A DNA stretch of 64,000 bases. It comes from Stropharia rugosoannulata (Eukaryota; Basidiomycota; Agaricomycetes; Agaricales; Strophariaceae). Within the stretch, counting starts at the first letter, position 1; each line of letters begins with the position of its first letter. Location of the stretch: the NCBI GenBank assembly GCA_028532985.1, contig JANCIK010000004.1, forward strand, positions 2,108,001 through 2,172,000. Reading direction: 5' to 3'. The notes beneath the pieces were generated by a model, which was given only the letters and a program-made list of their open reading frames with translations, searched no databases and was not told where the DNA came from. This document shows, one piece after another, positions 44,642 through 64,000 of the stretch. The position numbers and the translations under genes were made by a program.

Positions 44642-45852
44642 TGATGGGGCTGCTTTTTGGCTACGGGTGTAAACAGTCAGAAGGTCTGTTAGTGGGATAG
44701 CTGCATGCAGGAAACACAGAGAGACTAGAGTTGAGCCTGACTCATAGTCTATAGCTATCAGTGCACATCATGACTACAAGCACCTGTGCACACCTATTGT
44801 GAAAAGGATTGGACAGCAAACTGTACAGTTTTAAAAGTGCATAGTTTGGCCATCCATGTGAGCGATCAGGTGCATGCAGAACAGTTAAGCACCAGCCAAG
44901 TGCAGTGTGAGTACAGCTGAGCGAGTACCAAGGGTGGTGTGAAGGGCTGTGCAGACATCTCATGTATGTGCATTGCAAAGGCAGAATTTGCCTAAGTCCA
45001 CACATCATGTGACCGTGGCAGTGCGCATCAAAAGACACGCAAAAGACCAAGGGAACGAATGACATGCACGCAGCGAATGCCAAGGGGCTGGAACACTAAA
45101 GGGAAGCCTGGATGCAATGCACGGACCTTCGGCTGCATGTTGCTAGTATTTACTTTACCTTATCATTAGTACACATGCGTGCATCGCATATAAACCTGTA
45201 TCCTTGTCTATAGTAATTTAAGCAATTGTCTACCCACTAGATCTGTGTGCTGGGTTCTGTCCCAGGCCGTCAGCAGGTTGTGTTTAGCTTTTGTTAGGGT
45301 CTTAACTGTGAAGTATTTGTGAATTATAGAAGTTTTGGATAGCTTCTGGCCACTGGGTCATTTGAAGAGCTCAGTGAGGAGTCAGTACAACTGTGTACAG
45401 AAACTTGCACTGTAGTGTTCAGACTGTGAGACTGCACTGCCAGGTGAAAGACTTTGGAGAGTCTTGGATTTCTGGACTTTGGAGAGTCCGCACATTGAAC
45501 GAGGTCACCAGACCCTGAAGTGTGCTCAGCAAAGCCATTCGCTAAAAACAACTTATTTCATATATCATTTTGCCTAGCACATGCCTCTGGCAACTGGACT
45601 CTATCTGAGATTTACTAGAATTAAACCCCTCCTTACAAACAAACTTGCAGGCACTACTTGCTATTACAAAGACTAGAGGACATGAGGTGCGTGCATTGCA
45701 TGCCCAGAACGGGAACCAGGGCAGAGCATAGATTAAACTAGCCATTTAGTTGAGGGCATTTGCTTGATCTAAGGGATAGGATCTCGCTCTGCTAGGTGTG
45801 TGTGTGTGTTGTGTTTTGCAATTTCGAGTCTAGCTATGCAGTAGACCTCTCA
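44642..45852 (+). repeat. 5' LTR of Gypsy G (1,211 bp)
   Basis: It starts TGATGGGGCTGC and ends GTAGACCTCTCA. It aligns end to end with the inverted LTR at 53331-54544. Many CpGs of that LTR appear here as TpG or CpA. It is inserted in the KDZ gene. Confidence 0.9.
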
Positions 45853-45854
45853 TC

Positions 45855-45871
45855 TGGAGCCCACCGTGAGG
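45855..45871 (+). promoter_or_regulatory. Gypsy G primer-binding site
   Basis: TGGAGCCCACCGTGAGG lies 2 nt after the LTR, the usual position and TGG start for priming by the 3' CCA end of a tRNA. I cannot name the tRNA with certainty. Confidence 0.6.
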
Positions 45872-45952
45872 GCAAGGTTCAGAAATCTCATTTAGTGTTT
45901 CAGGAACTACAGCTTGCACCTATTACAATAAATTACAAAAATTTCAAATAAA

Positions 45953-47155
45953 ATGGGGACAAGTAACAAGCAAGGCAAATTTCCTGCACCTTCATCACTC
46001 ACCAAGCCAGAAGAAGCCAGACCATCCTTTGGAACAGTGCCTTCACGTGAGAGAACCACAAGGAGCAAGAAAGACACTGAGCTGGTAGAGCTGTTGGTCA
46101 TTACACCAATGCGAGATAGAAAAGCAAAGAAAAGAGTGAGGGAGGAAGTGCAGTTGCAGATCGAGACTCAGGGATTAGTGCAGCACACCCCAGGTGCGCT
46201 CACCGAAAGCAACTCGGAGTTAAGAGTAGGGACTAGTGGATTTTGGGGACCACCATCTGGCATCAAAACAGAAGACCAATTAGTGGACAGTGATATTACA
46301 CTCAAAACCGCACCATTTGGTACTTCTGATAGCCAAGCTACCCAAGACACCCCTCCTCCATTCTCGGAAGTATTTGGGACTGCTAAGACATCCGCGCAGC
46401 ACACGGCGGAAAATAGCGAAAGTGAGGCAGAGCGCGTAGCGAGAGATATATTTGGAGGAGACTTGTCAGATCTCTCAGAAAGCGAATGAAATACACCCCC
46501 ACAAGAATCAGAAACTATGCCTACAGATATGTCCATGCCAGTATGCGGTGCACATGGTGCACCAAGCTTCGATCCTGCTGCAGAGCACGATGAGCTGCTG
46601 AGGTACTTCGAGGACCTGGAGGATTGGTTTAAGCGCACAGAGGTGACGGAGGATGATGAGAAGAGAGGATATGTAATCAAATATGTACCCATGCAGACAG
46701 CAGAGGAGTGGAAGAATTTACCAGGTTATGATACCAAGGGGTATGTGGAGCTCAAGAAAATGATTCTCAATGAGTACCCGGAGGTGATCAGCATTCAGAC
46801 AGGGTCCATTGCACAGCTCAAGAAGCTCTGCAAGGAGAATCAGCACATCTCAGAGGAAGACCTCCAGGTGTTGCTGGACTTCAAGCGTGTGTTCTTGGCT
46901 GAGGCTGCTAAGCTCACGAAGGTGCCTACCCTGCTCGCGAATCATACCTTGATGACTTACTTCACCAATAGTCTCACTGCAGGGTTCAGGGATTGATTGT
47001 TTAATAAACTGGACATTGATTACACAACACGTGCATTGTTTGACAAGTTCTTAACTGAGTGCAATATACAGTTCACCACACCTACTGGGGTGACGGTAGA
47101 AGTGTGCAACAAGGACATGTACCTGCTCAAACAAGTAGCTGAGATGGCAGAACAT
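45953..47155 (+). pseudogene. Gypsy G Gag
   Basis: One frame from ATG 45953 with TGA stops at 46487 and 46994, both compatible with CGA to TGA decay. The N-terminal third is basic then acidic and disordered. The core (EHDELLRYFEDLEDWFKR ... YDTKGYVELKKMI) looks like a retrotransposon Gag capsid domain. It ends abruptly at the inversion junction near 47155. Confidence 0.75.
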
Positions 47156-49897: not shown

Positions 49898-52800
49898 TCA
49901 ATGCACAACAAGACCAAGGCGCTGAATGGAATCAATGAAAACTTGACGAGAAAGGGGTTTGGTTAGAATATCAGCAGGATTGGTACGACCAGGAGTGTGA
50001 ATAATAGCAAAAGTGCGGGATTTGATATGAGAGCGTACGAAATGATAACGAATGTCAATGTGTTTAGCCCGACTGTGTGAAGAATCGTTTTCGCAGAGGG
50101 AACGTGCGCCTTCATTGTCGGTGAATATCGACAGGGCTGAGGGACAGTCAATGTGAAGAAAGGTGAGTGAAGAGCGAAGCCAGATTCCTTCTTGAATGCA
50201 GCGCGTGATGGCGACATACTCAGACTCTGTAGAAGAGACGGCCACGCACGTTTGGGACTTTGAAGACCAGCTAATGGGCCCACCGGCCATGTACCAAACG
50301 AAGCCAGAGATAGATGCATGTGTTGATTTGTTGCCAGCCCAGTCAGCGTCAACATAGCAGGTAAGGGGAAGATCTTTATCCATGCCCCCATAGTGGAGAC
50401 GTAGAGAGCGCGTGCCAGCGAGGTAATGCCGGAGGAGGCGCTTTCCCGCAGCATAATGACAAGGTTGAGGCTTAGAGCAATGTTGAGAGAGCAACAAAAC
50501 AGCCACTGAGATATCAGGTCGAGAATAGTGCTGAAGGAAGAGGAGGGAACCGACAAGACGTTGAAAGGCATGAGTGAGGTTAGAAACAAAAGGATAGATG
50601 TCAGTGTCGTGGCCGAAAGGAAAGTTTGCGTCGAGTGGGGTTGAGACTGGGTTGCAATTAACTAAGCTGTATTCCTCGAGCAATGAATCTATGTATAAGC
50701 TTTGATGAAGCCATAGTTCAGATGTAGCAAGATCGCACTCAAATTGAACACCTAAAAACGACTTAACAGGCCCAAGGTCTTTGATGCCGAATGCCTTCCC
50801 AATTTCGCACTTGATGTGAGTAAGAAACATTTTCGAGTTGCAGCCTGCAAGGCCATTGTTGACGTGCATGGCAAGAATGCAGTGAACGGCTGATCCATTC
50901 CAGGTTTGACGAAAAATAAAAACGGCATGATTGAATTCAGAGTGTGTAAAACCCAGTTTGCGAAGTACTTCACAAAGTAGCAGATACCAGACGCATGATG
51001 CTTGTTTCAACCCATACAAGGATTTCTTTAGACGCCAAATCGAGGTCAACAAGGATGTTGCAGATACAAACCCAGGAGGCTGCTTCATATAAATTACTTT
51101 GGACAAATCGCCCCACAGAAAGGCACGAGTTGCATCGAAACAATCGAGCTGCCATCCCTGAGACACTGCATAGACTGCGATGAGACGAACACTGACTGAC
51201 TTAGCTACAGGCGCAAATGTGTCGGAGTAGTCAATCATGGGGATTTGTGAGAAACCTTGCGCAATGAGGCAACCTTTTGGGGAAGGAGGAGAGCCATCGT
51301 CGGCAAGTTTGAATTCAAACACCCATCTGTTGCCAATAGCATGTCGCCCGGCTGGTAAGTCCTCTTCCACGTAGACTCCCATCGATTTGAGCATAGACAG
51401 TTCCTTATTGACAACTGTCTTCCATACCTCGAAGTCAGAGCGTGCCATAGCCTCAGCATATGTAGCTGGCGGCACAGACATGTCATAAGTTGCGGAGGAT
51501 GGGTGACGACAAATGTCACTGCAAATTGATAGGAGGACGGTCTCGCAGAACGTGTCAGCATCACGCATGAGATACTCCTCTGCGTCGAGAGATAATGCAG
51601 AGAATTCGAGAGGGGCAGACTGATACAGAGGAGATGAGAACATGTCGGTGTTACATAGGCCAACAAATGGGTTTTCAGGATCATCAAGAGAGGCAGTGCT
51701 GACTGGAGGAGTGCGGTGCAAGGATTGTGAGGTGATGGAAGGAGATTTACTGCGAATACGTTCTCGATGCTCCTTTTGCGCCTTAATCAAGTTGTCCAGG
51801 AAAGCACCCTTCTCCGTGCGGTGGCGCTCACGAGATGAGGCTCGCACAGGACGAATGGGTTGGCTGTCAGATGGTGGGGACGGAGCAGAGGGAACTGACG
51901 ACAATTGAAGTGAAGAAGGAGTGGGTGGTTGAACAAGAATATCAGGAATTTCCGCAGGATTGCGGTCAAGAAGAGGTGTTTCAGACATCGGAATGGGTGC
52001 AAGATTTAGATCAGCTGATAGGCGAGCAAGAACAGACGGCAAGAAAGGAAGCAAGGTGAAATCTATTGGAGTTGCAGGTGGAGAATGAGCAGGTTTATAG
52101 GGTATATTTTCGTCGAAGATGACATTAGTTGAATCAAAGAAATGACCCGTTTTGATATCACGAACGCAATAGCCACGTCCACCAGGAGGATGGCCCATAA
52201 ATAGACACTCCACAGATTTGATACCGAGTTTGGATTGCTATTCCAAAGGAACATGAGTGAAGCAGCGTAGACCCCAGATGCATAAGTGAGTCAAGTTCGG
52301 CTTGCAACCGTGCATGAGTTCAAAAGGAGTGACACCTGTGGAAGATGAAACTGTGATGTTGACAAGATAGCAGGCAGTGAGAGCAGCTTTGCCCCAGTAG
52401 GTAAGAGGGAGCTGAGCCATGATCATCATGGCTAGCATGCGTTCTTGTAGGGTCCGCAGAATATGCTCGGCCTCGCCATTCATCCAGTGTTCTGTTTGCA
52501 GAGTAACATCCAGGAATATACCTTCCTCTGTGAGGTAACAACTGAATTCCGCCTTCCACTCTGGTCCACCATCGCATCGAAACTCCTTGATCTTTGCCCC
52601 GGTTTTCCTTTCCCACTTTGCCTGCATAATTTTGAAGGCCTCCAGTGTATGCACCGGTTCTCTGTCTGCAAGCAGCTGAACATTGATGATTTTCAGGTGA
52701 GAGTCTCAAAAGGCAACAAAATAGCGCTTATGATGCGGAGTTTGGACAGGGAAAGGACCGCAGATGTCACCTACAATACGCTCGAGAGGACCAGGACAAG

Positions 52801-53330
52801 GTTGAAGCATGTCGCTCTTAGGGTGCGGGTGGTTGACGTGTTTGGCAGTGATGCATGGCTCGCAAACTGAAAGAGAGCTATCATCTATTGACGAGGTGTG
52901 CTTGAGCGACTTGATTAAGAGGTGCGTCGTTCTTTCGCTGGGATGTCCAAACCGACAGTGCCACAGGTCAATTGTCTTGGCAAACATAGCAATCGAGGTT
53001 TCGCTGAGTTCCTTCACGAGCATGGAGCGCAAGAAAGCCGAGGGAATGAATTGTATCTGCAATACGAATAGACAATTTGACGTCATGGATCCTTCAGCAA
53101 AGGGAGTATTTGCTCGATAGAGAATGACACAACTGTCTTCCTCAAACGATGGTCTAATTTTAGCTCGGATAAGTTTGCCAAGAGATACCAAGTTGACTGC
53201 GCCAGACGGTGAGTGAAGACAGTTATTGAAACAAACGCGAATGGTTTGTCCATTGTAAGTGACATTAGCCATGCAGGTACCGCCCCCGTAAGTGACCAGT
53301 GTTCCAAGATTGGCCGTGGTGACATTCCGT
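49898..53330 (-). pseudogene. Copia E polyprotein: pre-integrase, integrase, RT, RNase H
   Basis: One frame throughout, with a TGA at 52706 and a TAG at 52238. Motifs: LWHCRFGHPSERTTH...CEPCITAKH (pre-integrase), GDICGPF, RCDGGPEW and NGEAEH (integrase D-D-E), DLPAGRHAIGNRWVF (RT start), LYGLKQAS, and RNase H (CYVDADWAGN, STESEYVA). The RT catalytic pair reads HVNNGL instead of HVDDGL; both changes are CpG to CpA. The final stop TGA is the first codon of the polypurine tract TGAGGGGGCG next to the LTR. RT would be dead. Confidence 0.9.
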
Positions 53331-54544
53331 TGAGAGGTCTACTGCGTAGCTAGACTCGAAATTGCGAAACACAACACACACACACACCCAGCGGAGCGAG
53401 ATCCTATCCCTTAGATCGAGCGAACGCCCTCAACTAAATGGCTAGTTTAATCTATGCTCTGCCCTGGTTCCCGTTCTGGGCATGCGATGCGCACACCTCG
53501 TGTCCTCTAGCCTTTGTAATAGCAAGTAGTGCCTGCAAGTTCATTTGTAAGGAGGGGTTTAATTCTAGTAAATCTCGGATAGAGTCTGGTTGCTAGTGGC
53601 GTGTGCTAGGCAAAATGATAAATGAAATAAGTTGTTTTAGCGAACGGCTTCGCTGCACGCACTTCCGGGTCCGGTGACCTCGTGCGATGCGCGGATTCTC
53701 CAAAGTCCAGAAATCCAAGACTCTCCAAAGTCTTTCACCCGGCGGTGCAGTCTCACAGTCTAAACACTACAGTGCGAGTTTCCGTACACGGTTGTACTGA
53801 CTCCTCACTGAGCTCTCCAAATGACCCAGTGGCCAGAAGCTATCCAAAACTCCTATGATTCACAAATACTTCACAGTTAAAACCCTAACAAAAGCTAAAC
53901 ACAACCTGCTGACGGCCTGGGACAGAACCCAGCACACAGATCTAGTGGGTAGACAATTGCTTGAATTACTATAGACAAGAATACAGGTTTATATGCGATG
54001 CGCGCATGTGTACTAATAATCAGGTAAAGTAAATACTAGCAACGTGCGGCCAAAGGTCCGTGCATCGCATCTGGGCTCCCCTTCTAATGTCCTGGTCCCT
54101 TGGCATTCACTGCGCGCATATCGTTTACTCCCTCGGGCTTTTGCGCGTCTTTTGATGCGCGCCGCCACGGTCACATGATGTGTGGACTTAGGCAAATTCT
54201 GCCTTTGCGATGCGCGCACATGGGATGCATGCACAGCCCTTCACACCGCCTTTGGTAACCGCTCAGCTGTACTCACACCGCACTTTGCTGGTGCTTAACC
54301 GTTCTATGCACACCTGATCGCTCGCACGGATGGCCAAACTATGCACTTTAGACTATGCAGCTCGCTGACCAATCCCTCTCGCGATACGGTGCGCGCAGGC
54401 GCTTATAGACATGATGCTTGTGCGCTGATAGCTACAGACTACGAGTCAGGCTCCACTCTAGTCCCTCTGTGTTTCCCGCGCGTAGCTATCCCATTAATGG
54501 AACTTCTGACTGTTTACACCCGTAGCCAAAAAGCAGCCCTGTCA
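53331..54544 (-). repeat. 3' LTR of Gypsy F (1,214 bp)
   Basis: On the minus strand it starts TGACAGGGCTGC and ends TAGACCTCTCA. It contains four TGCGCGCA palindromes (53999, 54111, 54211, 54390), all altered by C/T or G/A changes in the Gypsy G LTR. Confidence 0.92.
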
Positions 54545-54557
54545 TCTCCCCCCCACT
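54545..54557 (-). promoter_or_regulatory. Gypsy F polypurine tract
   Basis: AGTGGGGGGGAGA on the minus strand abuts the LTR and marks it as a 3' LTR. The same 13-mer occurs at 57533-57545. Confidence 0.8.
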
Positions 54558-55135
54558 AAAATCTTGACTGTCCTCAGTCAATTCCAGATGCATGCATCGC
54601 TCATGTAGTGACCGTCTACTAGTTTCCTTTCCTACTGTTTCTCGGCTTACTCAATACCCCCTTTTTGGGACCCACCCGAAGCACCATTCTGAGTCATTTC
54701 TCTATTTAGTTCCTTGATTTCCTCTTTTGGCATCCCCACGGAGTCCTTCTCAGACTAAGCGTCTTTAACCGCCACTTGCGCACTGATGCGCGCACCGCCC
54801 CTTTACACTACTTGCTGATCTGTTGCCGACCATGGTCCCCTCATTACCGTTTTCTGATCAGCCCTGAGTCATTGTCCTAATCAGACCCTCCCTTTTCCTG
54901 TTTTGGGCTCTGCTGTGCCTTCCTTCTGCGGCGCACTGTTCTAGTACATCGCCGGAAAGTTTATTCGACATACGCTCCTCGCCGTCTGGCTTCTCCCCTG
55001 CTCCAGAATTTTCCTTCGCTATCCCTTCAAACTTATATAAACCTCCTTGAATCCTTTTCAGCCCCTCTCTCCTATCATCCTTCACTTCCTGCCGCTTTCC
55101 TCTTCTATCTCACCGTGGCCTCTCATCGCGACTTC
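54558..55135 (+). promoter_or_regulatory. Promoter and 5' UTR of antisense gene 1
   Basis: No ORF. TATATAAA at 55034-55041 lies about 95 bp before the ATG, followed by a pyrimidine-rich stretch (55060-55115) typical of fungal promoters. One TGCGCGCA lies at 54787. Confidence 0.55.
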
Positions 55136-57124
55136 ATGGCTTTCCACAAACGCAGCACAAATCGCAAGCAGAAGACCGCCGTCCGCGAGCGCAAGATGTC
55201 TGACCACTTCCACTGCCTCCGTCCTGCCCTCGCACAATATAATACGTTGGAAGATTTGAGCGCACGCGGCGAGCTGTCGCCGACCGACACCGTTCAATTT
55301 CACTCGCTGTGCAAACAGTTCGGGTTCGCCCTCGAGCATCACCTTCTCGCTTTCCCCACCGACGCCTCTCATCATGCAGGCACACGCGAACTCATCCTGC
55401 TCCTCTCATTGCTCGCCTTCGAAGATGACAACCCCGTGTACGGCTGGGCTTCCTCCGATCCCACTCAGCGCACCATATGGTACACTGAGTCAGATCTTGA
55501 GCCAGTGAGTAATTATTTCTTCGTGCTGCTGCGCTGCGCTCACGCTTTCCCAGCTACCATCTTACAAGCGCGCGTTCCTCACCGCGTTCCCGTCTGCCTG
55601 GACCCCTGGGGCCGAGCCCGAGCCCCGCCTTCTCTACCTCCCTCCTGAGGTGAACAACCTTGACGTGGAGATGACCGGTCCAGAGACAGAGGCGGTGGGT
55701 CCCGCCGAGACGACACACGCGCCCCCTCCCGTGCAGTCTCGTGCTTCGTCCACCCCCCCACCGCCTTCTCCCTCTCCGGCGCCTCCTGCGCGTACGCCTG
55801 CTCCTGCCAAATGCAAGCGCGCCTCGCCTGTGCCCCTTTCGTCGTTACCAGTCCCTCCTGTGCCTAGAGCGAAGCGTACGCACCCCGCTACCACTACTCC
55901 CGGTAAGGTCTCTCTCTTTGATGGCCTCTCCCTTTTACTTGACGCGTTTCTAGTGGCACAGGAGGCTGTGGCGGGGCCTTCTTGTACGTGCGCATCTGCG
56001 CCCACCTCTTCCTCCTCTCGTGCGCGTACTCTCGTCGAGCCTTTGCTGCCCGCCTCAAGCGGACTGCCAGCGCTCTCGCGTCTCGAGGGCGTGGATTCTT
56101 CTAAGGTGGCATACGAGTCCACTTATCCTGTCTATAACCTGCTGCCTGGCGTCTATTCCGCCTCCCTTGCCTTGGCTGGCAAACCTCTTCCTTCCGCCAT
56201 TACTATGGCCCAACTTCCTTCTGAGAGTCAGTTAGACGCCGCAATTGTGGTACGTTCTCTCTTCTTTTTACTTTCTTTTTCTCCTTAGTAACTTATTCTC
56301 TTTTTATCCCTACAGCCTGGTTTTGCATGTTCCTCATGCGACTCTTCCCCTGGTACTTCCAAGTCGGCCCCCCATCAACTCTTCTGTCTCCTCCGCAGTC
56401 CTGGCAGGAAATGCGCGAAGTGCCGTCTCGATAGCCGTGGCCCTTGCATGCAGGCTATGACCGGAGCCGAATTGGACCGCGCTCTTGAGGGGTCGTCTGG
56501 TTGGTATTGGACCTCTCCCCGCGGTGTGCTCATTTTGATTCTTTTTGTCTTTTTTCTCCTTATCTTATTTTATTTTATTTAGAACTTCGCTCTGCCTTTG
56601 ACCGTCTCGAGGCATTTGGTCAGCAAGCGCGCGCTCTAGAGGAATCGCGTCGCGGCCTACAACGCCTGTACTTTGCTGAGCTAATTCAGCTGGTCCAGCT
56701 GGCCCAGGCCATGTCCGTCACCCTTCCCACTAACGTCATTATTGGCTCTCGTTTCACCGACTGTGAAACGTTCGACGCCCTGCGCTCGATGAACCTCGAG
56801 GCCCTTTGCGCTTCATACAATGTGCTTTGCCAGCCTCTTGACTCCGAGCAGCAGCTCAACTTTACTCCTCTGTCCTCTTTCTACAACCCCGAGCACCCTC
56901 GTCACGATCCCACCACTTTCGTGCCCGCACCTGTGCCATCTGTAGCCTCCAAGGTGCGCTCATCAACTTCCTCCAAGGCGAAGTCGTCCAAAGGGAAAGG
57001 GAAAGGGAAAGGCAAGGCCCCCGCTCGTCCCTACAAGTCTGCTCCTACGGTTGTTGATGACGCGAGCCCCGAGGCTTCTGCTGACGAAGAAGTTGGTGAC
57101 GGGGGCGATACTATGGAGGCCTAA
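55136..57124 (+). CDS. Antisense gene 1: 596-aa protein with Cys-cluster, four exons
   Basis: join(55136-55504, 55554-56249, 56316-56499, 56583-57124). All three introns are GT-AG (GTGAGT, GTACGT, GTTGGT) and every junction keeps the frame; no stop occurs. N-terminal 120 residues are helical (LEDLSARGELSPTDTVQFH; FALEHHLLAFP). A Pro/Ala/Ser-rich linker follows in exon 2. Exon 3 carries a zinc-binding-like cluster CSSCD...FC...KCAKCRLDSRGPC. Exon 4 is helical and ends in a Lys/Gly/Ser tail (SSKGKGKGKGKAPARP) and an acidic end. The family is unknown to me; the cluster could bind nucleic acid. It runs opposite to pol between pol and the 3' LTR. Confidence 0.75.
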
Positions 57125-57589
57125 GTCTTGCTGCGGGGCGCGCATTTTGGTGCTGGTTTTCTCTTACGTTTCCTTCTTGTTCCCTTCCTACTATTCTATC
57201 TAGCATATGTAGAATAGTTGTGTTTTATTATTATATGCTTTCAAATGATTTTCTTGTCTCCTTGTGTGATCTTAAGTTCTCTCTACTAGCCTGGTTTCTT
57301 TTGAGCGGCTACCAGTGCCATGCGCGCATATGACCAATGTCCACTTGCTTGTATCTGCCCATTAACTTCTGCTCCTGTCTTTCTACAGTGGGCGAGTATA
57401 AGTGCAATGCGCGCATATGAAAGACATGCATGTGTGTATGTGCCAGCCAGCTTTTACTTCTGCCCTGAGCTCTTGTTCTTCCTGCAGTATCTCCTTAAGC
57501 ACCTAGGTTTATCTCTGCTTGGCTAGGCCATCTCTCCCCCCCACTATAAATTCAACTGTCCCCAGTTGACAGATTCCCTGCCTTCTGCT
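57125..57589 (+). promoter_or_regulatory. Spacer between antisense genes 1 and 2, with promoter-like block
   Basis: TCTCCCCCCCACT (57533-57545) repeats the polypurine-tract complement beside the LTR, and the homology runs on for about 40 bp. Here it overlaps TATAAA (57545-57550), 40 bp before the ATG of gene 2. Two TGCGCGCA sites lie at 57321 and 57408. Confidence 0.5.
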
Positions 57590-58515
57590 ATGGCTCTCCG
57601 ATATCAGTGCACCGCCGTGGCTCGTCAATTTACCGTGTTATTGAGACAACTCGCCATTCATGCGGAGATCGCAGAGGACTGCAACAGCGGGCCTTTTCAC
57701 TTTCCTCTGCAATCTGCTCAGTCCATTGTGCGCGCACTGGTAAACCTCCCAAGTTCATACTAGCATTCCTTCTGCTAAATGTTCCCTTCCAGGATCATAT
57801 TACACTGCCTTTGCGCTTTATCGATTTCAATCGCCAATTCCTGTCTTTAGTCATGACGATCGTGTTTTACAAAGGCCGTGCTCAGCGCAGATTCAGTGAT
57901 GATCATTTCGATGCACGCATGCTCAGCAACGCTGCTCTTCACATTCTCGATCGGTACAGCCATCTTGGCATGCCTTTCCACAATCTCCCACCCTCGGAAC
58001 CAACAGGGACCGCCCTTTTAGACGTAGATCCCGACACTGCCCTTGTAGTAGATGATATTAGCTACGATTGAGCCCGTGCACGTTTCTGATGGATCGTTTA
58101 GTGATATATATGATCCCTCAATGAACCTGTCTTTTATCATCATGCCCTCCTTCGATACCGAAAGTAATCTCCTTCAACGCGCAAGGTCCGATCCTTCCTT
58201 CTTGCGCTTAGCTGCTCTACCCAAGCGGGCGCTAGCTGATATTCCGCTCGATGACCATGAGTGCGTCTGCCGCATCTACATACCTGTCACTCGCCTCGCA
58301 TCTCGCACTTGTGTGCTCAACTTCACTATAGCAAGCTCGTCCTGCGCTTGTGTGGTACTACTGATGCAGAGCGCTACGGCACCCTTCCTCACTCCGAACA
58401 CTTCCAACAACTCCACTATGCCGCCCAGGTCTTTTATCAGGAGGAATTCTTTCCTGTAGGCCTCTTCTTCTCATGCGCTGTGCTGACCCTGACAATCACT
58501 TCTTAGGATGTTTAA
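57590..58515 (+). CDS. Antisense gene 2: small spliced gene, probably frameshifted
   Basis: Exons 57590-57739 and 57793-58071 join in phase and give 142 residues (MALRYQCTAVARQFTVLLRQ...VVDDISYD). Coding-like sequence continues in other frames: PVHVSDGSFSDIYDPS...RLAALPKRALADIPLDDHE (58080-58290), then CAQLHYSKLVLRLCGTTDAE...YQEEFFP (58310-58455), and a GT-AG intron leads to a stop at 58513. So the original protein was probably near 300 aa with two frameshifts (mutation or sequence error), or there are introns I cannot place. No family recognised. Confidence 0.5.
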
Positions 58516-59014
58516 TTCCCGAACTGACACTCTGCTGTCTTTTCATTGATAACTATCTATACTCATAGCTAGCATCTATTTCTTGGTACATGTGTCATGA
58601 CCCTGTATTTGAAATAAGACTTGTCGGGTAACATTGTTATGCACTTTCGGCATCAATCCCAAAACAGACATCATTTCGCCAAACGGGGAAAGACCTGCAT
58701 CTCCCTTGATGCGCGCACTCTTTTGCTGCGATGCACGCATGATCTTCCCCCTTCTTCTCGTTGCTATATGGGCTCTTGTATTCAGGTCCCTTTCATCCCA
58801 CTCAATCTCCGTGAATGTAACGTCGGACAGGTGTAGCCCTGTACTATGACCCATCTGGATCTTTTCTTGAGTCCCTCTTTTCTTAACTCCTTGGGCCTGC
58901 TGCTCAGTCACCAGCTGTGTGCAGCACTGATCAACCCAGCGAATGCTATATAAGACGCTCGCCGTCTCTGTATGAGCGCATCGCACTTTATTCCTACTGT
59001 TCTCAACCACCACT
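58516..59014 (+). promoter_or_regulatory. Spacer and promoter of antisense gene 3
   Basis: TATATAAG at 58947-58954 lies 61 bp before the ATG, followed by CT-rich sequence and a CAACCACCACT start context. One TGCGCGCA lies at 58710. No gene seen. Confidence 0.5.
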
Positions 59015-60329
59015 ATGGCTACTACTCATGCTCCTCTTTTTAACTTTACTAATGTCAAGCATCAGCTCTCGCTGATCCAGGACATTCGTGGGTTGGCCTC
59101 TGCCACTCCTGCGAATTATACTGGCAGCTTGGAGCTGCTTGCTGCCGATCTGGTGCACACGTCGCGCTGTTCCTTTGTTGTATGCTACTGACTTCGGCTG
59201 GCACTATTGCAGAACCGCTGGCGCGACGCGCACGGCGGTATCACTCGCGTTATAAACAATAATGAAGCTATCGAGATCCTCAATGAGACTCGTGCCATAT
59301 ATACGTCGCTCGAGGCTGACCACCACGTTTGCTCCTTCTCCCCTGCCGCCAATGCATTTATCAACTTGCATGAACAAGTCCTCAAGGCCAAGGCTGCCGC
59401 TTCTCGTCAGCGCACCCATACCCCTACTGGGCCTGTGCGCTCATCTTCCTCTTCTAACCCTTTCTATACTTAAATCCCTTTGGTGCGTGCAGCGCAACGT
59501 TCGCGTTCTTACGCGTTCCGCAACTGCGGACCTTGAGACCGCCTCCGCGCCTGGAGGTACTACATCCCCTGACTCTGACGATGACAAGGTGTGGCTAACC
59601 TTAGTTTCTTTACCAGACATCACTAACATGCAACTTTACATGCTCCTCAAAAAGATGGCCCTCGACGATAAAGTTGAAGCTGCGACTGAGGGAGGTCCTC
59701 CCAGCAGGCAGCATACACCCGAGCCGAGTCCTAACAAGAAGCGCGCCGCGCCACCTGATACTCCCAAGCAGGTGTGTGTTTGATTCGTGTCTGCTGCGCG
59801 CACTTAGATTCTTATAGAAATACCAGCGCGAGTGCGGAGACACTCCTGGTTACTGCTCTCGTCCCCTTGGTCGAGGCATGACTTATCGTCAGACCGAGCT
59901 TCGTCGCTCATTCCGTGACGCCGCCGCAAGTGAGGCCTCTCCTAAGAAAGCCAGGCTGGGCTCAGAGGGTGTTCCTATGTTCCCCAACTCCCCTTTTATT
60001 ATGCAAGGTGCGTGCACCGCACCATTTTCTTACTGATCTCTTCTAACTATTCTCCTTCAGGCACTTCTCTCGTTTTGGACAACGACAAGGTCAATGCTTG
60101 TCTTGATGCCGCCGCTAACCTCCTTAAGGAACCCCTCAACACGGGTAACCCTTCCGAATTGGTGATGCGCCATCTCATTGGCGATTTACAGGCTGAGATC
60201 ATTTGTGATCTCCACAAGGTCGACTTCATCCTCAAGCGCCGTGCGCTCCTCGTCGAGCAGCTTGTCATCTTGCAGCGCAGCCTCGACGTTACTGGTGTTG
60301 CTGCCACCGAGGACAAACCTGCCCAGTAG
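59015..60329 (+). CDS. Antisense gene 3: 374-aa protein, five exons
   Basis: join(59015-59179, 59213-59434, 59493-59771, 59818-60007, 60061-60329). Four GT-AG introns of 33, 58, 46 and 53 nt; all junctions keep the frame and no stop occurs before 60327. N-terminal exons are helical (KHQLSLIQDIRGL; NEAIEILNETRAIYTSLEAD). The middle is Ser/Pro/Thr-rich with a basic patch (PSPNKKRAAPPDTP). The C-terminus is helical (CLDAAANLLKEPL; DLQAEIICDLHKVDFILKRR). Family unknown. It ends 127 bp from the pol stop, tail to tail with pol. Confidence 0.7.
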
Positions 60330-60455
60330 ATAGCCAGGCTCAAGGTGCGCTGCGCGCCTTAAAGGGGCGTCTGTAGCTAGCTCTCTTTGTGTTCCCCATC
60401 TTCTTTACCCAATATATTATATTGTGGTCGCTTTCTTCCTACGATGCTCGCATCC
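60330..60455. other. Spacer between antisense gene 3 and pol
   Basis: A short 3' to 3' intergenic stretch; nothing distinctive. Confidence 0.5.
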
Positions 60456-62789
60456 CTAAGTGTCTTCTTTGCCCCAGTCATCATCGTCTTCCTCATCTTC
60501 TTCCACTGTAAGCGCACCGCTACCCGAGGGTACACTGGGCTCATCAAAGATATAATCTTTGGGAATAGCTGGCTCGTAATCCGGTGCCTCTAACATTTTA
60601 GTGAGGTTCTCCTTGGTCTGATCAATTATATCATCCAAGCCGTCCGGTAAGCGCAGCTGCCTTCGTGCAAAGTAAGGAATGAGGCGGAACGCCGCCACCT
60701 TATCCTTCAACACAGAGCCATCCATCTCTGCCACTAAGTACGCTCCACCATCTTTTCGTGCGATAACGATGTAAGGCCCGTTCCATCGTGCAAGCATCTT
60801 ACGGTTCAGACTGGATTCTATGCCCGAGTTCCTCATTAGCACTACATCTCCTGGCTTAAACACATAGTCACGGATTTTAGCCGAGTGCTTCTTTTCAAAT
60901 GCCCTGATCGCATCTCTTTTCGTCTTTGATACTCGTGCGCGCATCTCCTCTACTGTGTCGCGATGTTTGGCTAGTGCGCGCACGCGATACCCTACTAACT
61001 CCTCCGTAGTCAGTACACGATCTGGTAGTTTCACCAGCCAAGTCGCTTCTGCTATGTCAAAGGGTAGTATGGGGTGCGCGCCTGTTACCATGAAGAATGG
61101 GGAACACCCGAATCCTCGTCGCACAGTGATACGATCAGCCCACAACACATGGTAGAAGAATCTACTCCAATGCTTATGCGTGCCTTCTGTCCCTCCACAC
61201 GCTTTCCACAACATCTGTCTTATGTCCCAATGAGGACGCTCTATTTTTCCATTCGCTTGCGAGTTGTACGCGGAAATAGTAATCCCTGTAATCCCATACT
61301 TCTTTTCTAAATACTTGAGCGCTGCGCAGAACGGTCCACCGTTATCTGTGATGATTTCTTGCAGACAGCCCCAACGGCAGATAATGTCCTTGAATATCCA
61401 CTGCGCTATCGCACGGGCATTCTCTTTCTTTAATGGCCGCCCTTCCGCCCATGAGCTCAGCGCACATCTTCCGTGCACTATGTAATTATACCCATTGGAG
61501 GCCGGGGACATGTGCATAGTGTCCGCGTGTAGTTGCTGGAAAATAGACGGCGTGTGTGTCTCAGTGCGTGGGATCTGGATGATTGTCTTCTGTCTTAACT
61601 GACAGACATGACATGTTTTCACATACCAGTAGACATCCCTTTCCAACTCCGGCCACCAGAAGCGCTCAGCTAGCAGTTTGTGCGTAGCGTACGCTCCTCT
61701 GTGCCCCAAGCTGTCATGCGCTGAGCGCAGCATGCGTGTCCGCTGCGCCTGATCTATCACCAACTTATGCGTGTCATCTATGGATCTCCGGTACATCCGC
61801 CCATCCTTGTCTAAGAAGAAGTTACGAGCATTCCTTGTAAAGTTCTGATATTCTCGCTCCGTCATGCCTTTAGGCCTAGTGGTTGGATTCTGCAACCAGT
61901 AGCGTATCGTCGGCAATTTCTCATCCATATCTTTTCCTGCAGACGTCCTGTTGCGCTCATCGTACTCTTCATCCTCCAGATCCTCTATTCTGGAGTCGGG
62001 TATCGCATGCGCTAATATGAATTTCTCTAAATACTTGCGCTGCGCGAGCGGCACACTCTCTTTCTGTATGAAGTCCCGCACAGCCCGCTTTTCTGCTTCC
62101 GTCTCTTCCCGTGCGCGCTCGAGCTCCTGCTGGAAACAGCCTATAGAGCGTGCTTCTGGTAACTTGCACGCAGTGGGACCTTCAAACAACTCGTTGAGTA
62201 GTCCTGTGTATAGATACCCGCCGCGATCATCAATCTGTTCTTTGAACTCCTCAAAGCCCAGGGGATCCAGGTCCTCTTCATAGACTTTCTCGTATTCGAG
62301 CAGTCCCACCTCCTGATCATCATCTTCTTCGGAGTGCGCATACGCCTCATCTCCCAGTTGCCCTTCTCTGCATGATAAACCATCTGCACCAAAAGTCTTT
62401 CCTGCAACATGTTTCAACTGGAAGTGATACATAAGTATTTTATCTATCCAGCGATTAATAGTTGCATTAGGACCCATGCCCAGATTATCCAACATGCCCT
62501 TCAAGTATTTGGCATCCGTTTCCACCACCAGCTTGCGCGCACTGATGAGCCAGTAATAACAGGCTTGTAGCGCACGTAAGAGTCCATACAACTCCTGCTT
62601 CGGCTGTGAGAAGCGCTGCTCACATTCTGTTAACAGTATTGATCCGAAGCGCGCATATACCCTCTTCTTCGAATCTTGTGGGTCCTGCTGGTAAATATAG
62701 AATCCTACTGCTCGCCATGATGGTCTACAGCCAAAGTAATCGGCCCTGGCAATGTGTAGTCCAGTGGTTTCACGCAATGTGCGTTGCAT
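60456..62789 (-). CDS. Gypsy F pol, RNase H and integrase
   Basis: Minus strand. RNase H comes first (FSQPKQELYGLLRAL, VVETDAKYLKGML). Then an integrase zinc finger (HDSLGHRGAYATH...CHVCQ near 61610-61710), the catalytic core D-D-E (HADTMH, ITDNGG, GKIERPH) and a GPY/F-type C-terminal module (ARWNGPYIVI). The tail is acidic. The apparent start at 62789 is only where this frame opens; the real N-terminus continues from the RT ORF through a 1-nt shift near 62715. Confidence 0.9.
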   Translation of the reverse strand: MQRTLRETTGLHIARADYFGCRPSWRAVGFYIYQQDPQDSKKRVYARFGSILLTECEQRFSQPKQELYGLLRALQACYYWLISARKLVVETDAKYLKGMLDNLGMGPNATINRWIDKILMYHFQLKHVAGKTFGADGLSCREGQLGDEAYAHSEEDDDQEVGLLEYEKVYEEDLDPLGFEEFKEQIDDRGGYLYTGLLNELFEGPTACKLPEARSIGCFQQELERAREETEAEKRAVRDFIQKESVPLAQRKYLEKFILAHAIPDSRIEDLEDEEYDERNRTSAGKDMDEKLPTIRYWLQNPTTRPKGMTEREYQNFTRNARNFFLDKDGRMYRRSIDDTHKLVIDQAQRTRMLRSAHDSLGHRGAYATHKLLAERFWWPELERDVYWYVKTCHVCQLRQKTIIQIPRTETHTPSIFQQLHADTMHMSPASNGYNYIVHGRCALSSWAEGRPLKKENARAIAQWIFKDIICRWGCLQEIITDNGGPFCAALKYLEKKYGITGITISAYNSQANGKIERPHWDIRQMLWKACGGTEGTHKHWSRFFYHVLWADRITVRRGFGCSPFFMVTGAHPILPFDIAEATWLVKLPDRVLTTEELVGYRVRALAKHRDTVEEMRARVSKTKRDAIRAFEKKHSAKIRDYVFKPGDVVLMRNSGIESSLNRKMLARWNGPYIVIARKDGGAYLVAEMDGSVLKDKVAAFRLIPYFARRQLRLPDGLDDIIDQTKENLTKMLEAPDYEPAIPKDYIFDEPSVPSGSGALTVEEDEEDDDDWGKEDT

Positions 62790-63645
62790 GCACCATCTTT
62801 TAGCGAGTCCATGCTAGCTTGCTGAGCGGGCCCCCACTCAAAGGGCTCTTTCCCACGCAATAGCCGCTGTATGTGCTCTGCGCGCTTCGCATAGTCTGAG
62901 ATGTAAATACGTAGCAGACCCATGGTACCCATGAATGCGCGCACATCACTGATATTCTTGCATGGTCCCCAATTGAGGATCGCATGCACTTTATCAGGTG
63001 CTGGCTTGCGCCCTTCGTATGTGCACAAGTGCCCCACCATTACTATCTCAGCCGCACACAGTATGGACTTCTTTCCACTAAATGTTCCTCCTGAGTACTT
63101 CATGTGCTGCACGATTCTGTTGACATTCAACATGTGTTCCCATACGAATCTCCTTATTCCCTTATTCTCTGGTATTGTCTCGTATCCTCCTCCTTCTAAC
63201 TCATAGCGCGTTTTAGGTCCCCTAATAGGTACATCATCTATGTAGGGTTCTGTAACTTCAGGTATCTCATCGCGTAATATATAGGCGACATCCTCATGAA
63301 AGATGGGCACGGAGTTCGTCCATCCCATAGGTAGGGTTACTAGGCGCAGCGCACCGAACGGCGTCTGGAATGTAGTCAGGTCTCTAGAGGACTCAGCTAG
63401 CAGCCGCTCATTGTACCCAACATACAAGTCCAGGATGCCGCCACATGCGCACCCCGCAAAGTGTTCTGCTAGACTCTCCGCGGCTGGAGGTAGTCCTGAA
63501 TGTGCAATGGTTACCGCATTTAACGGTTCAAGACTGTGCACAATTCTGAATGAGACCCTGTCTTTCTTAGTCACTGTAAACCAGCGCGACCGGTACGATG
63601 AGCTCGAGGGCTCATACGTTGACAGGCCTGCATTTATACCAAGGC
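62705..63645 (-). CDS. Gypsy F pol, reverse transcriptase (5' cut)
   Basis: Minus strand, from the LTR boundary at 63645: SSSYRSRWFTVTKKD, RIVHSLEPLNAVTI, LPMGWTNS and catalytic YIDD near 63236-63247, then the thumb and connection (AFMGTMGLLRIYI). The protease and Gag that should precede are absent because another LTR has inserted. The frame ends at ITLAVDHHGEQ, 1 nt out of phase with the RNase H frame. Confidence 0.9.
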
Positions 63646-64000
63646 TGTAAGTGGCCACAGCGGGCGGTTTGGGCTGAAGTGCAAGGGTACAGCAGAGCAG
63701 TGACTAGCCTGGTCAGCCGTCTCAGCGCTCAGCGCGTGCATCACAAATCATCACGCGTGTGCTCAGCAGGCGGTTGTGTGGGGTTCAGCGGACTGTACGG
63801 GCCATAAGTACACAGTTGAAGTACCCGGAGTAGCTGTCAGCAGAGCACATAACGGTTACTGTCGTCCCAGCGGAAGGCAGGAGTACAGCTGAGCAGAAAA
63901 TATCAAAGGCGACAAGCAGGACTGTGTGTAGACGGCGTCTCAAGGGGCTCAGCGGAACACATCACGAAGGCGAAATTTGCCTAAGTCCACTTGTCAGGTG
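63646..64000 (+). repeat. LTR of another Gypsy element (right end outside window)
   Basis: It starts TGTAAGTGGCCACAG where the RT frame of Gypsy F is cut. Parts match the LTRs of Gypsy F and G in the same orientation as G (GTACAGCTGAGC; AATTTGCCTAAGTCCAC), but the rest is diverged, so it is a related subfamily. Confidence 0.65.

Follow-up and report, generated by a model that had tools for sequence, protein, structure and literature searches.

A giant Ty3/Gypsy retrotransposon family of Stropharia rugosoannulata with four intron-bearing genes antisense to gag-pro-pol

Results

Organization of the element and of its antisense genes

The window analysed in this work is a stretch of 64,000 nucleotides from the basidiomycete Stropharia rugosoannulata (assembly GCA_028532985.1, contig JANCIK010000004.1, positions 2,108,001 to 2,172,000); it harbors the 3' portion of a Ty3/Gypsy retrotransposon in which four plus-strand genes, antisense to pol, lie between positions 54545 and 60455. 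The same layout is found in two subfamilies of the element, A and B, its introns and reading frames are conserved, and elements carrying it have moved recently with their introns intact. According to these data, a four-gene, intron-bearing cassette, antisense to gag-pro-pol and placed between pol and the 3' long terminal repeat (LTR), is most probably a fixed part of a giant Ty3/Gypsy family. The features are the following (ORF, open reading frame; PPT, polypurine tract; RT, reverse transcriptase):

53327..53330, no strand: left target duplication CCGT (LTR-flank comparison; right side CCGC)
53331..54544, minus: 3' LTR of the Gypsy element (genome matches, TG..CA ends, LTR pair)
54545..54557, minus: PPT-A, polypurine tract AGTGGGGGGGAGA on the pol strand (sequence; same box in other copies)
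54564..54581, no strand: hairpin A beside PPT-A, with a 7-bp perfect stem and a 4-nt loop (sequence)
55034..55039, plus: TATA box of gene 1, 102 nt before the ATG
55136..57124, plus: gene 1, five exons, 587 aa, Cys-rich exon 4 (spliced model, conservation)
57533..57545, minus: PPT-B, internal copy of the tract between genes 1 and 2 (13-nt core identical to that of PPT-A)
57552..57569, no strand: hairpin B, 7-bp stem (sequence)
57590..58071, plus: gene 2, exons 57590-57739 and 57793-58071, 142 aa, TATA box at -45 (spliced model)
58142..58506, plus: gene 3 remnant (comparison with other copies)
59015..60330, plus: gene 4, five or six exons, 365 or 343 aa (spliced model)
60456..63619, minus: 3' part of pol (RT, RNase H, integrase), in two ORFs here (ORFs, profile matches)
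63620..64000, minus: start of a nested, related LTR (about 1.4 kb) in the RT region, running beyond the window (ACGT duplications)

The original prediction had placed in this interval three plus-strand genes with TATA-like boxes, two of which spliced into 596 and 374 aa. Spliced plus-strand genes preceded by TATA boxes are present, but they are four rather than three; moreover, the two genes do splice, but into proteins of 587 aa (gene 1) and 365 or 343 aa (gene 4). Gene 1 comprises exons 55136-55504, 55554-55902, 55954-56249, 56316-56523, and 56583-57124, and gene 4 comprises exons 59015-59152, 59213-59434, 59493-59771, 59818-60007, and 60061-60330. The two lengths of gene 4 depend on a 66-nt in-frame GT..AG segment (59589-59654), identical in the window and in the copy on contig C6; since both subfamily-B copies have an in-frame stop inside it, we favor its reading as an intron (343 aa), possibly a conserved retained intron or an alternative splice. 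Gene 3 has lost about 174 nt, intron included, at about 58281 in the window, and elsewhere it has two exons coding for about 160 aa. With its four genes, an intact cassette thus contains ten or eleven introns.

In the window, TATA boxes precede all four genes. Among 18 subfamily-A loci tested, all 16 identified starts of gene 2 have the box at -45/-46 and all 15 identified starts of gene 3 have it at -37/-38; the start of gene 1 was identified in just two of these loci, both with the box at -102. The two subfamily-B copies have TATA boxes before genes 2-4, and none was found in them before gene 1.

The LTR at 53331-54544 (termini TGAGAG...CTGTCA on the plus strand) has at least 41 matches across its own genome (48 Mb, 20 contigs, the window lying on contig C4); 40 of 343 candidates were scored in this search, so that copy numbers are lower bounds. 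Its reading as a 3' LTR with the element's interior to its right is borne out by the polypurine tract abutting its right side and by the partner 5' LTR, found beyond the window at C4:2177218-2178433 and differing from it by one substitution and two gap columns over 1214. Six same-strand LTR pairs, spaced 14.6-21.0 kb from start to start, were recovered; four of them show no substitution over 1213-1215 bp, and the C2 pair has 15. Perfect 4-bp target duplications (GCGG, GCGG, GCGC, CCGG, and CCGA) flank five of the six, as expected for independent insertions, and those of the window's element (CCGT on the left, CCGC on the right) have one mismatch. Perfect duplications of the NCGN type were observed at five of the six paired elements and at nine of ten solo LTRs (two solo loci seem to be one duplicated site), which suggests an insertion preference centred on CpG.

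Pol lies on the minus strand, as does the LTR, and ORF and profile evidence agrees with the predicted end at 60456. In the window, pol is itself broken at 63619 by the nested LTR, which extends into L061:1-1131 and parts of which are 72-87% identical to the element's own LTR. In the C6 copy, about 15.9 kb long (as are those on C1 and C8), the pol strand carries a pol ORF of 1312 aa, an ORF for the protease, and a gag region. The assignment to Ty3/Gypsy is based on paired LTRs, on a primer-binding site TCTGGAGCCCACCGCGAGGGG abutting the 5' LTRs (matching tRNA not assigned), on the polypurine tract AGTGGGGGGGAGA (pol strand) abutting the 3' LTRs, and on the order gag, protease, RT/RNase H, integrase. 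Pieces of the C6 and C4 copies matched the Pfam models of aspartyl protease, RNase H, and integrase H2C2; the zf-CCHC match of gag reached 19.3 bits, below the cut-off of 20.8, and the RT part of these pieces reached no Pfam model and was recognised from its sequence. Across gene 1, the pol strand has open frames of 94-191 aa, variable in length, which were taken as incidental.

Distribution of the cassette in the family

The counts given here concern pol matches of subfamilies A and B with a length of 400 aa or more; they leave out shorter ones, a decayed 68% match, and a group with 58-59% identity. Of the listings behind them, one derives from 136 of 136 candidates scored, with 150 of 186 matches listed, and the other from 96 of 305 candidates scored. 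Among the matches listed, an antisense gene 3 exon 2 lies within 4 kb on the 3' side of pol in 44 of 48 subfamily-A and 20 of 24 subfamily-B copies, at a median distance from pol of about 2.0 kb. The cassette thus belongs to the Gypsy element, as had been predicted, the site and the antisense orientation being the same in these copies. Furthermore, for 37 of the 40 scored DNA matches to gene 4, pol lies on the expected side at a distance of no more than 600 bp. Looking from gene 3 outwards, 64 of the 93 places listed lie next to a pol match no shorter than 400 aa, and another 12 next to one that is shorter or decayed (76 in total).

Two subfamily-B copies, L063 and L064, harbor all four genes in the same order and orientation. 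Identity by aligned segment is 33-55% for gene 1, 51-75% for gene 2, 61-76% for gene 3, 52-78% for gene 4, and 85-86% for pol, and spliced alignment revealed that genes 2, 3, and 4 keep the same introns. In gene 1 of L064 there is an intron at the position of intron 1 and likely also intron 2; gene 1 of L063 (L063:1709-3730) lacks introns 1 and 2 and keeps introns 3 and 4. Such a clean loss of two adjacent introns would be consistent with copying from an antisense mRNA that had been spliced. Moreover, all four gene 1 introns are present in the C6 (L037) and C1 (L032) elements, the LTRs of which differ by no substitution; since such elements keep their introns, the latter have survived recent reverse transcription.

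Conservation of introns and reading frames

In 15 other copies of gene 1 (64-95% exon identity), the four introns, 47-93 nt long, are in place, with GT at 59 and AG at 60 of the 60 splice sites of each type. Among the 52 exon indels of the same copies, 47 have a length divisible by three, many being shared by descent, and, the window included, 13 of 16 projected frames have no internal stop. The GT..AG intron of gene 2 is present in 17 of 18 copies and, according to a strict pattern, that of gene 3 in 13 of 17. Being conserved over so many copies, the introns and reading frames of the cassette are not due to chance.

The ratio of nonsynonymous to synonymous change (dN/dS), calculated within subfamily A by a simple method on tblastn segments, is 0.11-0.24 for gene 1 (20 copies, more than 500 codons; 0.25 for L032 and 0.36 for L033), 0.10-0.34 for gene 2, and 0.04-0.25 for gene 3 (against L043), compared with 0.14 and 0.17 for pol. 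For gene 4, one pair compared through exact models gave 0.117. Between A and B, gene 1 has a dN/dS of 0.29-0.41 (three B-type matches). Judging from these ratios (0.04-0.36), all four genes are under purifying selection within subfamily A.

Gene 1 as an exchangeable module

The comparison of other copies with the window revealed that gene 1 does not share the history of its surroundings. Identity is 83-98% over the LTR and the first 56 nt of the element's interior, and falls to 43-59% over the next 200 nt in 12 of 14 copies. Over gene 1 it amounts to 42-91%, L032 and L033 excepted, and for the greater part of gene 2 and past it the values are again about 84-98%. Promoter and gene body can separate as well: L034 and L037 resemble the window in the promoter region but not in the body of gene 1, whereas the reverse holds for L032 and L033. 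Over 15 elements, mean pairwise identity is 0.73 for gene 1 and 0.92 for gene 2, with a Spearman correlation of 0.08 between the two (105 non-independent pairs); thus, L047 and L056 are 97% identical in gene 1 but 89% in gene 2, and L036 and L047 are 97% identical in gene 2 but 66.5% in gene 1. The synonymous distance is 0.84-2.06 for gene 1 (20 full-length copies other than L032 and L033), compared with 0.21-0.42 for gene 2 and 0.14-0.17 for pol, and this excess indicates that gene 1 represents old, distinct types on a younger, shared backbone. According to these comparisons, gene 1 has been swapped among elements.

On its right, the swapped module ends at some point between the stop of gene 1 and PPT-B rather than precisely at the tract. 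Behind each tract, as read on the plus strand, there is a hairpin with a 7-bp stem; hairpins A and B differ at two paired positions and the stem is kept. In L001-L060 (overlapping loci counted twice), the hairpin stands beside 35 of 35 PPT-A and 18 of 19 PPT-B boxes matched. L063 and L064 also have both boxes, with a slightly different tract and one G-T pair in hairpin B of L063. One may speculate that PPT-B starts plus-strand DNA synthesis and, in this way, favors the exchange of gene 1.

Short dispersed motifs

The subfamily-A motif TGCGCGCA occurs 14 times in the window, always within 53331-63619, and 53 times in ten solo LTRs versus three times in their 30 kb of flanks. In subfamily B, the motif CAGCGGA occurs 44 and 41 times per 7.2 kb, against a first-order expectation of about 1.4, and it lies on the pol strand in 40 of 47 and 40 of 46 cases (first 9 kb of the B copies). 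It was also counted 25 times in these same 30 kb of solo-LTR flanks, which served as background, 21 of them beside the solo LTRs L024 and L030, the former of which adjoins a subfamily-B gene 1. With a second-order background, the B motif remains extreme; the A motif is clear against the first-order background, and by the second-order measure (with the 8-mer core filtered out) it is not above control segments. CAGCGGA is also visible three times in 63700-64000, within the nested LTR. The supposition that the A motif is missing from gene 1 was abandoned: there are no occurrences in the window and L032, but one to four in the 13 other copies counted.

VANDAL elements, DNA transposons of Arabidopsis, encode VANC anti-silencing proteins and have short family-specific dispersed motifs. 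The element described here may resemble them in carrying accessory proteins together with motifs of this kind, though VANDALs are DNA transposons and this is an LTR retrotransposon.

A third, more distant group

The group with pol 58-59% identical (L065-L067; seven places among the matches listed) has, between pol and the 3' LTR, a spliced antisense gene of five exons whose intron phases (0, 1, 0, 1) are those of gene 1, as well as another tract-plus-hairpin box. In four places, the first part of this gene is 69-70% identical, the remaining matches being at 82-100%; in both copies read the gene is damaged, by a frameshift in L065 and by a stop in L066. Motif enrichment in this group is weak and not exceptional by the second-order measure. 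A by-eye impression that the gene is homologous to genes 1-4 was dropped, no significant similarity having been found: the gene 1 profile scored -13.1 bits against the third group in hmmsearch (best shuffle 4.8, with 340 of 500 shuffles reported), and a profile comparison including the frameshifted copy gave a probability of 2% (E 0.025).

Relationship with known systems

A pol scan of viral and prokaryote contigs retrieved no relative. An AlphaFold2 model of gene 1 exon 5 alone (mean predicted local distance difference test score, pLDDT, 50.5; one long helix) was not used.

As for additional genes of this kind in fungi, an antisense gene, brtn, was reportedly described in the Boty element by Zhao in 2011. 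Boty, a Gypsy element of Botrytis cinerea, is cited for this single antisense gene in PMC7264820 and PMC8365987, and the latter mentions other additional ORFs in Botrytis elements. Boty is thus comparable in being a fungal LTR element with an additional antisense gene; one gene is described there and four spliced ones are found here, a distinction drawn from the description of Boty, not from its sequence. In plants, the Ty3/Gypsy elements Grande, RIRE2, and Retand have antisense extra ORFs between pol and the 3' LTR (PMC7264820, PMC11963269); the antisense region of Retand measures 2.9-6.6 kb, Grande has its own promoter, and family-wide retention and a proposed regulatory role are mentioned in the same two papers. 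The likeness consists in an antisense coding region of several kb (5.9 kb here) in the same place; what differs, as far as those elements are described there, is the presence here of four genes with ten or eleven introns conserved in place, and the fungal host. The word "intron" is absent from the main text of PMC7264820 and PMC11963269. Furthermore, TRP28, the domain of the antisense ORF in the Retand lineage, gave no match in any of the four proteins at E 1. Lastly, HBZ of human T-cell leukemia virus type 1 (HTLV-1) is a retroviral antisense gene (PMC11963269) that is likewise placed at the 3' end and expressed separately from the genomic RNA; according to its description, it is a single gene of a retrovirus, whereas a multi-gene block of a retrotransposon is dealt with here.

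No fungal multi-gene spliced cassette was found in the literature, most subscription papers lying outside the search. The novelty originally claimed therefore holds for such a cassette and not for antisense genes in fungal elements as such, since brtn of Boty was already on record.

Surroundings of the element

A Copia-type pol (RVT_2) lies at 49898-53272, directly to the left of the Gypsy 3' LTR. Further left, at 44647-47154, there is a truncated relative in opposite orientation. It consists of an LTR that shares 89% identity with 53331-54539 and, next to it, a gag fragment that shares 97% identity with the 5' end of the element in the window. On the right, the flank of the element (L002) aligns with window positions 48687-48008 in inverted orientation, which indicates that the surrounding locus has been rearranged. 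In the region 1-27000, nested repeats, both direct and inverted, are densely packed; they measure up to 1.9 kb, with 99% complementarity, and the first 1.1 kb of the window is repeated 19.8 kb away.

Discussion

Retroelements copy themselves through RNA and normally cannot keep introns. Their genomic RNA is transcribed from the 5' LTR along the pol strand, where antisense introns are reverse-complemented and left unspliced. In the family described here, each gene of the cassette would be transcribed from its own TATA promoter, with splicing of the resulting mRNA; the genomic RNA, which corresponds to the opposite strand, would remain unspliced at the cassette introns, which would then be copied faithfully. 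Gene 1 is exchanged as a module, most simply through template switching between co-packaged RNAs.

Several observations weigh against the cassette being a fixed and functional part of the family. No gene 3 is listed at 4 of 48 A and 4 of 24 B pol copies (four of these eight have gene 4 adjoining pol), and 17 of the 93 listed gene 3 places are without a listed pol and may be truncated, interrupted, or independent copies; these 17 places aside, no independent locus of these genes, which would have spoken for a chance association, was recognised. As regards coding capacity, frame-breaking indels occur in gene 1 of L037, L040, L049, and L056 and stops in that of L038, L056, and L058, and gene 3 is damaged in the window. 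The dN/dS method is a simple one: the synonymous distance of most gene 1 pairs within A is near or above 1, synonymous change between A and B is saturated for genes 2-4 and pol, hence no ratio is available, and a first value of 0.45 for gene 4 against C6 (tblastn) was due to intron read-through and was replaced by the one from exact models. Moreover, none of the four proteins passes a Pfam cut-off (the best match being DIL, E 0.18, for gene 1), and genes 1 and 4 matched no solved structure. They also retrieved no protein homologue at E 0.001 (7991 and 7998 candidates scored) from a collection that holds such elements, since the pol control gave 1051 matches in it, but that looks like unspliced predictions, so that this null result says little.

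If the cassette were a passenger, i.e., host or foreign genes captured with no benefit to the Gypsy element, the lack of known domains in the four proteins would be readily understood, and captured genes are known in retroelements, as mentioned in PMC7264820. Such a passenger would decay, whereas dN/dS points to purifying selection within subfamily A, and the genes persist in most of the copies listed and in both subfamilies, the pol of which is 85-86% identical; hence we regard this reading as improbable. Alternatively, the cassette might descend from another mobile element, either a DNA transposon or a virus, that became integrated in antisense orientation within an ancestral Gypsy element and turned into a part of it. 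This would account for the opposite strand, the predicted promoters, and the introns, and PPT-B could mark an old insertion or recombination point. The proteins have no transposase-like domain, nor was a stand-alone copy recognised, although the 17 places mentioned above have no listed pol beside them; this scenario, which concerns the origin of the cassette more than its function, seems to us rather unlikely, albeit less so than a mere passenger.

Other explanations concern what the genes do. The antisense transcripts might act as RNA, for instance through double strands silencing or regulating the element, the frames being incidental; regulation by antisense RNA is discussed for such elements in PMC7264820. 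Frame-preserving indels, conserved splice sites, and dN/dS values of 0.04-0.36 point instead to a protein function, making this the least probable of all the alternatives, even though a regulatory RNA side effect of the transcripts is possible. Similarly, the far greater divergence of gene 1 compared to its neighbours might reflect fast evolution under positive selection rather than swapping. Its whole-gene dN/dS is low and the excess lies in the synonymous distance (0.84-2.06 versus 0.21-0.42 for gene 2); in addition, its relationships are uncoupled from those of gene 2, and promoter and body can separate, so that positive selection in place of exchange appears very improbable.

If the cassette is a maintained part of the element, its proteins may, as a tentative proposal, be accessory factors acting as regulators of expression, packaging, or silencing, with gene 1, through its Cys-rich, putatively zinc-binding exon, distinguishing element lineages. 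A more specific proposal, which we put forward as unlikely, is a self/non-self system, suggested by the family-specific motifs beside family-specific accessory genes, which recall VANC. In such a system the proteins, gene 1 above all, would recognise the motif scattered through the subfamily to which they belong (for A, TGCGCGCA; for B, CAGCGGA), and in that subfamily alone they would relieve silencing or permit expression or packaging; the discrete gene 1 types would reassort freely because competing elements of the same genome gain by exchanging specificity, and the PPT hairpins on either side of gene 1 would aid the exchange while reverse transcription takes place.

The family would represent a standing solution to the problem of keeping introns in a retroelement, that is, an antisense spliced block present in dozens of copies, recent insertions included, and it would extend the known single antisense ORFs to a maintained multi-gene block. 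It also brings forward four proteins without known relatives that are under selection. Lastly, gene 1 provides a clear case of modular gene exchange among co-resident retroelements, one in which a role in silencing or competition may be tested.

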